DNA of 64,000 nucleotides, taken from positions 62,001-126,000 of the forward strand of contig NZ_PGOI01000012.1 of NCBI RefSeq assembly GCF_002794355.1, written 5' to 3'. Each line of letters begins with the position of its first letter. Position 1 is the stretch's first letter. Shown in pieces: positions 32,659 to 58,963 of this stretch. The position numbers and the translations under genes are program-made. Below the pieces are notes generated by a model. That model was not told the origin of the DNA. It saw only the letters and a program-made list of their open reading frames with translations, and did no database searches. Origin of the DNA: Pseudorhodobacter sp. MZDSW-24AT (GTDB lineage: Bacteria > Pseudomonadota > Alphaproteobacteria > Rhodobacterales > Rhodobacteraceae).

Positions 32659-32720
32659 CGATTTTTCGCAGAAAAATCGTCTTTCTTCTCGTCTCAACCG
32701 ATGTTTCGCAGAAAAATCGG
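32659..32720. repeat. CGCAG-core hairpins, locus 1 (two copies)
   Basis: Copy 1a at 32659-32679 has arms CGATTTTT and AAAAATCG around core CGCAG. Copy 1b at 32698-32720 has arms CCGATGTTT and AAAAATCGG with one mismatch. Both read CGCAG on the plus strand. They lie between the pntB stop (32726) and the GC hairpin upstream of the DUF3422 gene. Confidence 0.85.
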
Positions 32721-32725
32721 CCCGG

Positions 32726-34228
32726 TCAGTCGATCAGCGGCAACAGCGCATCCAGGGATTTCTTGGCATCGCCATAGAACATCCGTGTGTTTTCCTTATA
32801 GAACAGCGGGTTCTCAATTCCCGAATACCCCGTCCCCTGCCCGCGCTTGGACACGAACACCTGCTTGGCCTTCCAGCATTCCAGCACCGGCATCCCGGCA
32901 ATCGGGCTGTTGGGGTCTTCCTGCGCGGCCGGGTTCACGATGTCATTCGAGCCAATCACGATCGCCACATCCGTGCTCGGGAAATCCTCGTTGATCTCGT
33001 CCATCTCCAGCACGATGTCATAAGGCACCTTCGCCTCGGCCAGAAGCACGTTCATATGCCCGGGCAAACGGCCCGCCACCGGGTGAATGGCAAAGCGCAC
33101 CGTCTTGCCCTTCGCCCGCAGCTTGCGCGTCAGTTCCGACACCGCTTGCTGCGCCTGCGCCACCGCCATCCCATAGCCCGGAATGATGATGATGCTGTCC
33201 GCCTCGTTCAGCGCCGCCGCCACACCTTCGGTGTCGATGGCCACTTGCTCACCGGTGACTTCCATCTGTGGCCCCGAACTGCCGCCAAAGCCGCCCAGGA
33301 TCACGCTGACAAAACTGCGGTTCATCGCCTTGCACATGATGTAGGACAAGATCGCCCCGGACGAACCCACCAAGGCCCCGACCACGATCAGCAGATCATT
33401 GCCAAGGCTGAAGCCGATCGCCGCCGCCGCCCAGCCGGAATAGCTGTTCAGCATCGACACCACCACCGGCATGTCGGCGCCGCCAATGCCCATGATCAGG
33501 TGATAGCCGATGAACAGCGCCAGCAACACCAGCAAGATCAGCGTCCAGCTGCCCGCGTCGTTCAGATACATCGCCGCCAGCACCACCGACCCGATGGCCG
33601 CTGCCGCATTCAGCATATGCCCGCCCGGAAGCTGCTTGGCTGCCGAGTTCACCTTGCCGGCCAGCTTGCCATAGGCAATCACCGATCCGGTAAAGGTCAC
33701 CGCACCAATCCAGATGCCCAGCACCAGTTCGATGCGCAGGATCGTGATCTCGACGGCGGTTTTCTTGGCAATCAGCGCGCCAAAGCTGGAAATGCCGTCG
33801 AACACCCCGGCCTGCCCGAATTTCTCGGCGCATGCGATGGCACTCAAGGCCGGATCGCAGCGGTCGATCCCGGCGCCCGCCAGCATCCCCATCACCGCGC
33901 TGATCTGCAAATCGGCGTTAAAGCCCACAAAGACCGCCGCCAGACCCACAAGGCTGTGCATGATCGCCACCAGCTCGGGCATCTGCGTCATCTGCACCTT
34001 GGTCGCCAGCTGATAGCCAACGATACCGCCCAGGGTGATCAGGATCAGGCTGACCGCCCAAAGCCCTTGCCCCGGCCCCATCAGGGTGGCGACAATGGCC
34101 AAGGCCATACCCGCGATGCCATACCAGACCGCGCGCTTGGCGCTTTCCTGCCCCGACAGCCCGCCAAGGCTCAGGATGAACAAGACCGCCGCAACCGCAT
34201 AAGCGGCGAATGTGAAACCGTAATCCAT
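32726..34228 (-). CDS. pntB: NAD(P) transhydrogenase beta subunit
   Basis: The 500-aa subunit has about nine membrane helices and a C-terminal NADP-binding domain. Marks are [20 protein letters not shown], the [20 protein letters not shown] loop, and domain [18 protein letters not shown] plus [20 protein letters not shown]. It couples proton return to reduction of NADP+ by NADH, which phototrophs use for biosynthesis. AAGGAG precedes ATG 34228, 13 nt after pntA. Confidence 0.97.
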
Positions 34229-41294: not shown

Positions 41295-41372
41295 CGGAGT
41301 TTTCTGCGAAAATCCGGCTCTGCCTCGCTGTTGCGCACCGGCGAAGCAGAGCGATTTTTCGCAGAAAAATCG
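41295..41372. repeat. CGCAG-core hairpins, locus 2 (inverted pair)
   Basis: Copy 2a at 41295-41318 has arms CCGGA(G)TTTT and AAAATCCGG around CTGCG, with one bulged G. Copy 2b at 41352-41372 has arms CGATTTTT and AAAAATCG around CGCAG, identical to copy 1a. Between them GCTCTGCCTCGC (41318-41329) can pair with GCGAAGCAGAGC (41341-41352). The whole block fills the gap between two convergent genes. Confidence 0.85.
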
Positions 41373-45346: not shown

Positions 45347-45408
45347 GATCTTTCTGCGAAAGATCCCGGCAGCCCCGGACGCCACCGCGAATTTTCGCAG
45401 AAAATTCG
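45347..45408. repeat. CGCAG-core hairpins, locus 3 (inverted pair)
   Basis: Copy 3a at 45347-45365 has arms GATCTTT and AAAGATC around CTGCG. Copy 3b at 45388-45408 has arms CGAATTTT and AAAATTCG around CGCAG. They fill the 74-nt gap between convergent ygfZ and efp. Confidence 0.88.
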
Positions 45409-55536: not shown

Positions 55537-55749
55537 TCAGGGCCGGAAAATGGCAGGCGTGATCGCCTTGGCTTCCAGCCAGGCGCGGGCCAAGGGCCCA
55601 TGCACCGGCAGGCGCTGGTGGCGCAGCGCCGTCCAGGCCCAGGCCAACAGCGACAGCGGCACCGCGACCAGGAAGATCAGCACGAAATACACATAGAACT
55701 CGGCCTTTGGCGTGCGATGCACATGGCCGCCTGCGGTCTGGTCACTCAT
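55537..55749 (-). CDS. pufQ: PufQ, bacteriochlorophyll-related small membrane protein
   Basis: The 70-aa product (ATG 55749, GGGAGG upstream) starts [20 protein letters not shown] and has one helix ([18 protein letters not shown]) plus a C-terminal [18 protein letters not shown]. Family members raise bacteriochlorophyll production, by an unclear mechanism. The start overlaps the bchZ end by 8 nt, as in other Rhodobacter species. Confidence 0.93.
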
Positions 55750-57244
55750 GAATGCCTCCCTTGGCGTTCGCGTCTTGGGTTGGGCGGGCATCCCCGCGCA
55801 ATCCTTCGACAAATTCGACAATCACCCGCTCGGCCCCGTGGTCGAGCGCGGCCTTCTCCGCCGCATCCCGCAAGGATTTGGCGGCCGAGATCCGGGTCAG
55901 CACCGGGTGCTCGGAAACAATGCGGTCCAGTGCCGCCTGCGCGTCGAGATCCCATGGGAAATCGCGGCGCAAGGTGGTGGGGGTGGCGGCGGCGCTGTCC
56001 ATCTCAGACCCCAAGGGCAGGATGTGGAACAACGCCTCGAACAGCCCGTTGCACACTTCCTGCAAGATCCAGACCGCCCCGGCATAGCCCATGAAAGGCG
56101 TGCCGGTGTGCCGCCGGATCGCGGCCCCGGGAAAGCTCGCGGCGATGAAACTCGGGGCCGGACCCCCAAACGATCCGGGTCCGCCCTTCATCTCCGCCAT
56201 GTACATCTTCTCGTTGATCGACCCCATCACGATCAGCGGCCGATGCTGTTTGAGCAGCGCGCGCACCGCCTCGTTGTTGGTCTTGGCCCCCGCGACGCGC
56301 GACACCGCAAAGGCGCAAGGCAGGCCCAGATCATGCTCAAGGTAGTTGCGCACGCCGCGCGTATAGGTGTCATTGGCCACAATCGCGAAACTCGCGGTGG
56401 CAAAGAAATCCTGCGTGACCGACCGCCACAGATCCCAGACCGGCTTCAGCGTGCTGTGCTTTTCCCGCGCGATGAACGGCTCCGGGTCCAGCCCCAGCAA
56501 TTCCCCCAAGCTGCGCAGGAATTTCGTGGTCGACTCAAGGCCGAAGGGCGCTTGCAAATAAGGTTTGCCCAGCACCTCCGCGAGACCGCGCCCGAATTCG
56601 CGGTACATCACGATGTTCACATCGGCATTCACCAGATTGCGCATCTCGGCCAGATGGGCGCCCAAGGGCATCACCATATTGACCTCGGCCCCGATGCCTT
56701 CGACCAAGCGGCGGATCTCGTGCAGATCGCTCGCCATGTTGAAGGTGCCATACATCGGGCCCAGAATATTGACGCGCGGCGGCGCGCCGTCTTCGCGCTT
56801 TTTCTCCACCGGCATCCGGCCCTTGGTCATGCCGAATTCGGTGAAGATCCAGGTCATCGCGCGGTCAGCGCATTGCCACTGGTCCTCGTCGATGGTGCGC
56901 GGCAGGAAGCGCTGAATATTGGTGCCCGCCGGGGTGACGCCCCCACCGATCATCTCGGCGATCGACCCGGTCACCACCACCGCCGGCAGCGCCGGGTCGA
57001 GAACCTTCCAGGCCCGCGCCATCGAGGCTTCGGTGCCCGAGGACATCTCATCCTCGGCCAATCCGGTGACGACAATGGGCAATTCATGCGGCGGCAACGC
57101 GTCGGTGTAATGCAGCACCGAGGTGACCGGCAGGTTCTCACAGCCCACCGGGCCATCAATCACCACCTGCAATCCCTTGACGGCGCAAAAGGCATAGATC
57201 GCCCCCCAATAGCCGCCCGCCCGGTCATGGTCCTGAATCAGCAT
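55742..57244 (-). CDS. bchZ: chlorophyllide reductase subunit BchZ
   Basis: The 500-aa nitrogenase-like catalytic subunit pairs with BchY. It shows [20 protein letters not shown] (conserved Cys), [38 protein letters not shown] and [15 protein letters not shown]. The C-terminus contains the light-independent reductase tail [10 protein letters not shown]. The puf promoter is expected inside its 3' part. The upstream gap of 124 nt holds four tandem hairpins. Confidence 0.97.
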
Positions 57245-57260
57245 GGGGTGCCCTCCCCAC

Positions 57261-57358
57261 GATCTTTCTGCGAAAGATCAGCAGCACGAATGTTCTGCGA
57301 ACATTCCAACCAAAGTTTCGCAGAAACTTTGTCCTTACGATTTTTCGCAGAAAAATCG
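57261..57358. repeat. CGCAG-core hairpins, locus 4 (four tandem copies between bchY and bchZ)
   Basis: Four palindromes lie in 98 nt: 4a 57261-57279 (GATCTTT, CTGCG, AAAGATC), 4b 57288-57306 (GAATGTT, CTGCG, AACATTC), 4c 57311-57331 (CAAAGTTT, CGCAG, AAACTTTG) and 4d 57338-57358 (CGATTTTT, CGCAG, AAAAATCG). Orientation flips in the middle: two CTGCG, then two CGCAG. Copy 4a has the same arms as 3a, and 4d the same as 1a and 2b. They occupy nearly all of the gap inside an operon. Confidence 0.92.
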
Positions 57359-57368
57359 AGGCGATGGG

Positions 57369-58892
57369 TCATATCATCTCCTCCGCCTTGGCCGCGCGCG
57401 CCAGCTTGTCCAGCTTCTTCTGGTGGGCGGCGCGGAAATCGGGGCGCAGGTTCGGCGCGCCTTCCCAGATGCCCGAGGTGTCGTCCTTGCCCACACCCTC
57501 AAAGAACGCCTTCATGCCGGCCATGCGGCTCTTGTTGCCCATCGCGGCGGTGATGACCTGCGCCAGCGATCCCGCGCCCGCCGGCCCCATCAAGGGGCGC
57601 GCCGAAATCAGGTTGGTGAAATACAGCGCCGGAATGCCCAGCTCCTTGGCCTTCTGCACCACCGGTGTGGTGCCGATCGCCAGATCGGGCGCAAAGCCCG
57701 CCATGGCGGCACAATCGTCTTCCAGGCTCGCACGGAACTTCACCGCCACGCCGCGCGCGGCGAGCCAAGCGCGGTCTGCCTCGCTCCAAGCACTGCGCGC
57801 GCAGGCCGTGCCGACATAGGGCACCTCGGCGCCGCTTTCGATCAAGAGCCGCGCCACCAGCAGCTCCGACCCTTCATAGCCCGACAGCGTGATGCGCCCC
57901 CGGATCGGGTTGGCGGCCAAAGCCGCGCGGATGGAGGCGCCAAAGGCATTCTGGGCCGCCGCGATCTTTTCTGCCGTCACATCATAGGCTTGCCCGACAG
58001 AGCTCAACCAGTCCATCGTGCCCTCATAGCCCACCGGGGCAGAGCCCACCACGCTGCGCCCGGCCGCCTCGAAAGACCGCACCGCCGCCGTGTAGAACGG
58101 ATGGATCGCCGCCACCACCTTGCAATCCAGCGCGGCGTAAAGCTCGCGCCACGCGCGGCACGGCACCACCGGCCCCGCGGCCAAGCCCATCGGCGCCAGC
58201 ATGGCGCCAATCATCATCGGATCGGCCGGGAACATCTCGCCCAAAAGCGCCACCGCCGGGCGGTCGCTGCGCCCCGTGGTTGGCGCCGCCACCGGCCCTG
58301 CCGCCACCTCGGCGCGCGCGTAATCCAGCATCGCGCCCGCCAGCACATCCTTGGCCTCGGCATGGGTTGGCACGCCGAACCCCGGCACATCGATCCCCAC
58401 GATCCGCACGCCGTTGATTTCCTTCGGCAACAGCCGCAGCGGCACCCCGCTTGCGGTGGGCACGCACAGGTTCGTCACCACCACCGCATCATAGCGCGCG
58501 GGGTCCGCCAGTTCATGCACCGCATCGCGGATGTCCTCGAACAGCTTGCCCGTCACCAGCGATTCCGAGTTGAACGGCACATAGCCCACCGACCGCCGCG
58601 CCCCGTAGAAATGCGACACGAAGGTCAACCCGTACACACAGCAGGCCGAGCCCGACAGCACCGTCGCCACCCGCCGCATCCGCAGCCCCACGCGCAAGGA
58701 CCCGAAAGCCGGGCACATGGATTGCGGTTTGTCATGAGGCCCTTGCGGGTAATCTTTCGCGTAACGGTTTAACAATTCCGTGTTGCCCGCTGCCCGCGCG
58801 GCCGCCGCCATCTGGTCGGCCCCGGCATGGCATCCTTGCCCATCCAGCGATGGCACAGCCGCTTCGGGCGCCACATGGCGCAACCCGCTCAT
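57369..58892 (-). CDS. bchY: chlorophyllide reductase subunit BchY
   Basis: The 507-aa partner of BchZ has Cys residues for the iron-sulfur cluster in KPQSMCPAFGSLRVGLRM, SGSACCVYGLTFVSHFYG and VVTNLCVPTASGVPLR. GEMFPADPMMIGAMLAPMG and GSAPVGYEGTMDWLSSVGQA follow. ATG 58892 has AAGGGG upstream and overlaps by ATGA the small ORF described next. The complex reduces the C7-C8 bond of chlorophyllide. Confidence 0.97.
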   Translation of the reverse strand: MSGLRHVAPEAAVPSLDGQGCHAGADQMAAAARAAGNTELLNRYAKDYPQGPHDKPQSMCPAFGSLRVGLRMRRVATVLSGSACCVYGLTFVSHFYGARRSVGYVPFNSESLVTGKLFEDIRDAVHELADPARYDAVVVTNLCVPTASGVPLRLLPKEINGVRIVGIDVPGFGVPTHAEAKDVLAGAMLDYARAEVAAGPVAAPTTGRSDRPAVALLGEMFPADPMMIGAMLAPMGLAAGPVVPCRAWRELYAALDCKVVAAIHPFYTAAVRSFEAAGRSVVGSAPVGYEGTMDWLSSVGQAYDVTAEKIAAAQNAFGASIRAALAANPIRGRITLSGYEGSELLVARLLIESGAEVPYVGTACARSAWSEADRAWLAARGVAVKFRASLEDDCAAMAGFAPDLAIGTTPVVQKAKELGIPALYFTNLISARPLMGPAGAGSLAQVITAAMGNKSRMAGMKAFFEGVGKDDTSGIWEGAPNLRPDFRAAHQKKLDKLARAAKAEEMI

Positions 58893-58963
58893 CGCGCACG
58901 CCCCTTGGCTTGCAACACGCGCAGCGCCTCTTCCAGCCGGGTCAGGGTGTCGAGATCAAACAT
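58889..58963 (-). CDS. candidate 24-aa peptide gene between bchX and bchY
   Basis: A 24-codon ORF starts at ATG 58963, inside the last codons of bchX, and stops at TGA 58889-58891, sharing ATGA with the bchY start. Its sequence begins [19 protein letters not shown] and ends with basic residues; it would form one amphipathic helix. Upstream GGTG and GGAAG could serve ribosomes. It may encode a peptide or simply carry ribosomes from bchX to bchY. I know of no described protein of this kind here. Confidence 0.45.
   Translation of the reverse strand: MFDLDTLTRLEEALRVLQAKGRAR

Follow-up and report, generated by a model that had tools for sequence, protein, structure and literature searches.

Subunits of heteromeric complexes are over-represented among overlapping gene pairs (PMC10666635), and BchY and BchZ, as subunits of one complex, are of this type. 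In the window, by which we mean the whole stretch of 64,000 nucleotides from Pseudorhodobacter sp. MZDSW-24AT analysed here, 124 nt separate the bchY stop (57369) from the bchZ ATG (57244) on the minus strand, and four hairpins lie in between. Here we describe what occupies this distance and how the two genes may remain coupled across it.

An ORF across the bchY-bchZ gap

The family matches listed in Table 1 agree with the gene identities given in an earlier note on this DNA, as do the coordinates with the 124-nt gap and the four hairpins that it described. Its statement that the other neighbours in the operon overlap or are very close has to be amended: the bchX-bchY gap nearby measures 63 nt. 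The earlier note also missed that an ORF spans the whole 124-nt gap and overlaps the genes on either side. We use the term bridge for this arrangement, i.e. a start overlapping the upstream stop, a frame open through the gap and a stop overlapping the downstream start. In the window the ATG of the bridge is at −4 relative to the end of bchY.

Table 1. Positions of the features of the window that are discussed in the text
Feature	Position	Strand	Remarks
bchY, chlorophyllide a reductase subunit Y	57369..58892	-	TIGR02015, 751 bits, and ORF; 3' end GGAGGAG-ATG-ATA-TGA
Shine-Dalgarno-like GGAGGAG ahead of the bridge ATG, within bchY	57378..57384	-	sequence reading
Bridge ORF, unannotated, 44 codons (44 aa) and stop	57238..57372	-	ATGA overlap with bchY stop; ATGCTGA overlap with bchZ start
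Hairpin 1 (gene order), CGATTTTTC-TGC-GAAAAATCG	57338..57358	-	
Hairpin 2 (gene order), CAAAGTTTC-TGC-GAAACTTTG	57311..57331	-	
Hairpin 3 (gene order), GAATGTTC-GCA-GAACATTC	57288..57306	-	opposite orientation
Hairpin 4 (gene order), GATCTTTC-GCA-GAAAGATC	57261..57279	-	opposite orientation
GGGGAGGG, Shine-Dalgarno-like for bchZ, within the bridge ORF	57251..57258	-	sequence reading
bchZ, chlorophyllide a reductase subunit Z	55742..57244	-	TIGR02014, 831 bits; ATGCTGATT gives the bridge stop TGA at nt 5-7
Small ORF in the bchX-bchY gap	58889..58963	-	start -8 to bchX stop, stop -4 to bchY start
Two hairpin units, 7 nt behind the stop of gene 32726-34228	32660..32718	.	dispersed copies
Inverted hairpin pair between convergent genes	41297..41371	.	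5 and 7 nt from stops
Inverted hairpin pair between convergent genes	45347..45407	.	7 and 6 nt from stops

The array in the gap consists of four perfect hairpins with the common core TTC(TGC)GAA and differing outer stems. It folds at −58.8 kcal/mol versus −34.6 kcal/mol in shuffled sequences (z −6.3), and the 9-mer TTCTGCGAA occurs 10 times in the window, where 0.34 occurrences are expected. No Rfam family was matched in the window. An intrinsic terminator was discarded: no G+C-rich stem followed by a T-run overlaps the array on the minus (coding) strand. This fits the earlier remark that a strong terminator would be odd at this junction.

A dispersed REP-like hairpin

The hairpins of the array are copies of a dispersed REP-like repeat with about 60 hairpins in the genome. 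This supports the hairpin unit suggested in the earlier note, and within the genus the array occurs in this species only. The 11-mer TTTCTGCGAAA has 57 matches in the genome versus 2 for the reversed control. Around exact cores we found 58 perfect hairpins with at least five further pairs; chance core matches show 0–3 further pairs and are therefore cleanly split from the true hairpins. Because the surroundings of exact 9-mer matches were used for the catalogue, diverged copies are absent from it. Although variable, the outer stem remains paired, with full complementarity of the arms in 58 of 61 cases versus a mean of 17 when the 3' arms are re-dealt, and G-T pairs are absent from the five outer pairs of the stems (61 units).

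The gene context of the hairpins was taken from a simple codon-score gene caller. With weak single matches set aside, about 16 clusters are located between convergent and about 18 between co-directional genes, 1 lies between divergent genes and 3 lie within predicted genes. The family sits at a median distance of 7 nt behind stop codons, and the TGC strand mostly has the sense of the gene whose 3' end the hairpin adjoins, which accounts for the inverted pairs between convergent genes. Many intergenic palindromic copies, inverted dimers and a location near gene 3' ends are what is generally expected of REP-like repeats. No stop codon is found in any of the six frames in 46 of the 61 hairpins, the remaining ones having five open frames; in composition shuffles about 1.7 of 61 are fully open in all six.

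Perfect hairpins of the family were also seen inside predicted protein genes (L111:1996-2014, L128:9071-9089, L148:1993-2011), where the unit may thus be translated as part of the protein. Ordinary terminator-like stems, G/C-rich and with T-runs, occur beside or between hairpin units (L135:1977-2049, L123:6705-6723); because both are found side by side, the hairpin adds to such stems rather than replacing them. A comparison of contigs C12, C4 and C25 with C24 and C1 (G000) showed an uneven spread of copies, with many on the 380-kb C12 and few on the 740-kb C24 and the 340-kb C1.

Among 296 Rhodobacteraceae genomes, sampled at one per genus, 19 have the strict form of the hairpin, a few of them with 17–54 copies. 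Counts within the own genus, which is close to Pseudotabrizicola/Cypionkella by BchZ identity, range from 57 down to none. REP families tagged GTAG or CGTC are palindromes of 20–40 bp that form inverted dimers, lie near stops and mostly in convergent or co-directional gaps, and are patchy among species (PMC3733652). The hairpin of the window is likewise palindromic, forms inverted dimers, lies near stop codons and is patchily distributed. It differs from them in its 5' tag (C/G)AC before a GAW stem, its 3-nt loop and its conserved core with a variable, compensating outer stem, and no dedicated transposase was found. We rejected membership in the GTAG REPs, as there is no unpaired GTAG and the 5' flank reads C/G (52/61), A (48/61), C (59/61). 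The CGTC superfamily, defined here by a 5' CGTC (or TGTC/CCTC), a stem starting with AT, a loop of 4–5 nt and a tail CCA, was rejected as well: the hairpin has no 5' CGTC, a stem mostly beginning with GA and a loop of 3 nt.

A RAYT-driven REPIN inserted at random, with an untranslated gap and a coincidental frame, would suit the inverted pairs, the high copy number and the presence of two RAYT genes (L209, G000:C25:239853-240287; L210, G000:C22:40349-40783). Both genes clearly match NF047646 but fall below the Pfam PF01797 cut-off. The full-length RAYT at C25:239853 is flanked by a different repeat, GTAG-GGTGCGTGC, no TTCTGCGAA core lies near either RAYT of this genome, and genomes G254 and G313 have 19 and 17 hairpin copies and no RAYT. 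RAYT mobilisation was rejected on these grounds. Since the frame rule in 69 of 69 gaps (see below) excludes coincidence as well, we regard this origin as extremely improbable. Because the RAYT link failed, the hairpins are fairly described as a REP-like family for which no mobiliser was identified.

The bchY-bchZ junction in relatives

We compared 167 distinct bchY-bchZ junctions, 147 from Rhodobacteraceae and 20 from Alphaproteobacteria outside the family. In line with the mobile repeat suggested in the earlier note, the array is not kept: in sister species the two genes either overlap directly (TGATG) or are separated by another repeat. Among the Rhodobacteraceae junctions 72 overlap by 1 nt (TGATG), 3 overlap by 7 nt, 3 have gaps below 5 nt and 69 have gaps of 55–283 nt. 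Outside the family 10 junctions overlap by 7 nt, 9 overlap by 1 nt and one has a gap; the 7-nt overlap in these 10 of 20 is exactly that of the bridge stop with bchZ. The single gap, in genome L270, is filled by a CGTC-type repeat dimer CGTCACCCCAGC...GCTGGGGTGACG and likewise forms an ORF that overlaps its neighbours at −4 on either side.

The bridge ORF, its overlaps and their conservation over the 69 gapped loci can be read directly from the DNA. Gap length is 1 mod 3 in 69 of 69 junctions. From dinucleotide shuffles the bridging frame (frame 2) would be expected to be open in about 39 of them, yet it is open in every one (product of chances ~1e-18); the observed counts for the remaining frames are 43 and 35 of the 69 gaps. 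The bridge start overlaps the bchY stop (AT[ATG]A or TG[ATG]) at −4 in 46 loci and at −1 in 23. Relative to bchZ the bridge stop is located at +7 in 64 loci, because bchZ codons 2–3 (ATG CTG AT., ATG CTA G.., ATG TTA G..) supply it, at +10 in 3 and at +1 in 2. A Shine-Dalgarno-like stretch precedes the bridge start in 64 and bchZ in 67 of the 69 loci. Four annotated plasmid-borne copies, in which the bchZ starts were annotated independently, also fit the bridge rule; the bridge is missing from their gene tables, the table being known to be incomplete. Two other readings of the open frame were rejected, read-through of BchY, as frame 0 is open in only 43 of 69 gaps, and an N-terminal extension of BchZ, as the bridge is in another frame.

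The flanking codons differ between the two types of junction. The last bchY codon with its stop reads ATATGA in 39 of 69 gapped versus 0 of 72 overlapping loci, and a stop is present at bchZ nt 5–7 in 65 of 69 versus 27 of 72. Synonymous codon choice thus tracks the gap or overlap architecture.

The bchX-bchY gap is unfit as a neutral control, for it carries its own conserved small ORF; we used bchZ-pufQ gaps and 83 co-directional gaps of 40–300 nt (G000, G002) instead. Only 3 of these 83 are bridged, including bchY-bchZ, which leaves 2 of 82 without it, and their lengths spread over the three classes mod 3 (33, 28, 22). The nine bchZ-pufQ gaps are mixed. Within this genome we noticed a second possible repeat-filled bridge at L129:7857-7957, between a cysS-like and a citramalate-synthase-like gene (cysS-cimA), where a GTG overlaps the upstream stop (GTGA) and the frame then runs without a stop across a TTCTGCGAA hairpin and a repeat rich in G/C, ending 8 nt into the next gene.

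The inserts of the 69 gaps are mostly unrelated repeats, grouped into 30 sequence clusters. On a junction-protein tree resting on ~270 aa the gap or overlap state changes at least 46 times (shuffled mean 54), a near-random distribution which may reflect recombination or poor resolution. With at least 46 state changes and 30 insert clusters, many of the insertion events are independent, the exact number being blurred by recombination, by tree resolution and by some of the 69 loci belonging to close relatives. Five loci carry the hairpin of the window, two of them probably closely related; here 13 of 13 cores are in one reading phase and 8 of 8 spacings are multiples of 3, whereas the spacings in other hairpin clusters of this genome are free of this rule. 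As for other fillings of the gap, the GTAGGGTGCGTGC hairpins that flank the RAYT at C25:239853 are found in L045 and L067, and a hairpin pair CAAATTCCTTnnAAGGAATTTG-CAAATCTnTTnnAAnAGATTTG, which looks like a further dispersed type, in L043, L090 and L283.

The bridge peptides have no common sequence among the 69 loci, save the final Cys forced by ATGC. They are peptide readings of local repeats, such as DFSAKN/DFSQKNR (the hairpin of the window), KYPTGVRGCETPAA, GVSHPRTPVGYF, CVLART and others. Since the ORF is conserved in 69 loci and its start and stop have a good context, it could in principle encode a functional small protein that is part of chlorophyllide a reductase or helps to assemble it, and the adjoining bchX-bchY gap does hold a small ORF with a conserved peptide. 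We consider this very unlikely for bchY-bchZ, where the peptide is read from whichever repeat is present, about half of the relatives have no bridge and searches of Pfam and NCBIfam gave no match. Unlike the bridge, the bchX-bchY ORF may be a true microprotein. A loose test for it was positive in 54 of 75 junctions, its peptide is conserved in Rhodobacter-like lineages (MFDL..L..LEEAL, also MFDL..L..LEEALRAL; loci L031-L110), and the annotations of Roseobacter litoralis and Tateyamaria omphalii list it as a hypothetical protein.

The structure of the gaps is not uniform either: z falls below −2 in 27 of 69, with a median of −1.4. An alternative reading takes the hairpin array as an RNA element, a processing site or a shield of the mRNA end that tunes bchY versus bchZ-puf, with the frame rule incidental. 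The fold in the window, the structured inserts in the 27 loci and the placement of the family, a short distance behind stops and with its TGC strand oriented like the adjoining gene, as for REP-like 3'-end stabilisers, would agree with it. Most gaps, however, are not unusually structured, the inserts are unrelated, the frame rule is kept in every gap and translating ribosomes would melt the hairpins, so that we judge this reading unlikely. With structure in 27 of 69 gaps versus frame and overlaps in 69 of 69, RNA structure was rejected as the conserved trait, and the processing site or decay buffer put forward in the earlier note does not hold as the main explanation; an extra RNA effect of the hairpins beside the bridge is possible. 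Frame, start overlap and stop overlap are what is kept at this junction, peptide and structure what is not.

Probable coupling of bchY and bchZ by the bridge

Taking these comparisons together, the bchY-bchZ gap is very probably a translated bridge ORF that keeps termination-reinitiation coupling across repeat insertions. Its translation, the coupling by it and a peptide without function of its own are what we infer from the conserved architecture. A ribosome finishing bchY at ATATGA would reinitiate at the overlapping ATG of the bridge, translate the repeat-filled gap into a short functionless peptide, stop at the TGA contributed by bchZ codons 2–3 (ATGCTGA) and reinitiate at the bchZ ATG; the passage from bchY to the bridge would take place at −4 or −1 and that from the bridge to bchZ at −7. 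The bridge would thereby carry the coupling of two equal subunits over a distance that otherwise breaks it, as coupling by termination-reinitiation needs an overlap or a very short gap and is nearly abolished by ~20 nt (PMC10666635). The four hairpins would be passengers, REP-like copies which habitually land a few nt behind stop codons, and would be tolerated in the gap because hardly any frame of the unit contains a stop and the array preserved the reading frame. bchZ retains its own Shine-Dalgarno-like stretch, and some independent initiation is possible.

The −4 (ATGA) and −1 (TGATG) overlaps are those of short-overlap coupling (PMC10666635, PMC6728339), and as there the pair consists of two subunits of one complex. 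The difference is that two consecutive junctions are linked here by an ORF without a conserved product, and that the downstream overlap is 7 nt. By analogy, the closest known case is that of the mycobacterial interspersed repetitive units (MIRU; Supply et al. 1997), which are described in the review PMC12548453 as mobile repeats whose own ORF keeps coupling after insertion. Both cases have an intergenic repeat at a coupled junction with an ORF overlapping a neighbour; the comparison is one of architecture, as the MIRU hosts belong to a different phylum and their repeat unit differs from the hairpin of the window. A start overlap of 4 or 1 nt and a frame open to the downstream start, which make up the MIRU-like architecture, are each found in 69 of 69 loci. 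MIRU is one family that fits many junctions, whereas here one junction has many unrelated repeats in different lineages, all in frame and with overlaps at both ends.

Short ORFs that serve the translation of the next gene and not their own peptide are also known from bicistronic designs and leader ORFs, which deliver the ribosome to the next gene (cited in PMC12548453), and from mgtQ between mgtC and mgtB, which acts through acidic residues and alternative stems (PMC8092293). In contrast to mgtQ, the sequence of the bchY-bchZ bridge is free and frame and ends alone are kept. No description of this bridge was found in the literature searched.

As to how the gaps arose, we lean slightly towards a fixed coupled-gene junction on which unrelated repeats land and from which they are lost again over evolution, each being accepted only if it can be read through as a bridge ORF. 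If this holds, translational coupling, and neither the peptide nor RNA structure, would be the selected trait shaping the intergenic region, and repeats may be favoured for their near absence of stops in all six frames.

An apparently non-coding gap thus becomes strong comparative evidence for selection on termination-reinitiation coupling: in dozens of lineages different inserts occupy one junction, the frame and both overlaps are always kept, and peptide and structure are free. Gap length mod 3 combined with an open bridge frame offers a simple genome-wide test for coupled pairs. The finding also calls for caution with any small ORF that lies between subunit genes, as it may act as a coupler and not encode a microprotein. 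It further suggests that translatability in any frame underlies the spread of some intergenic repeats.
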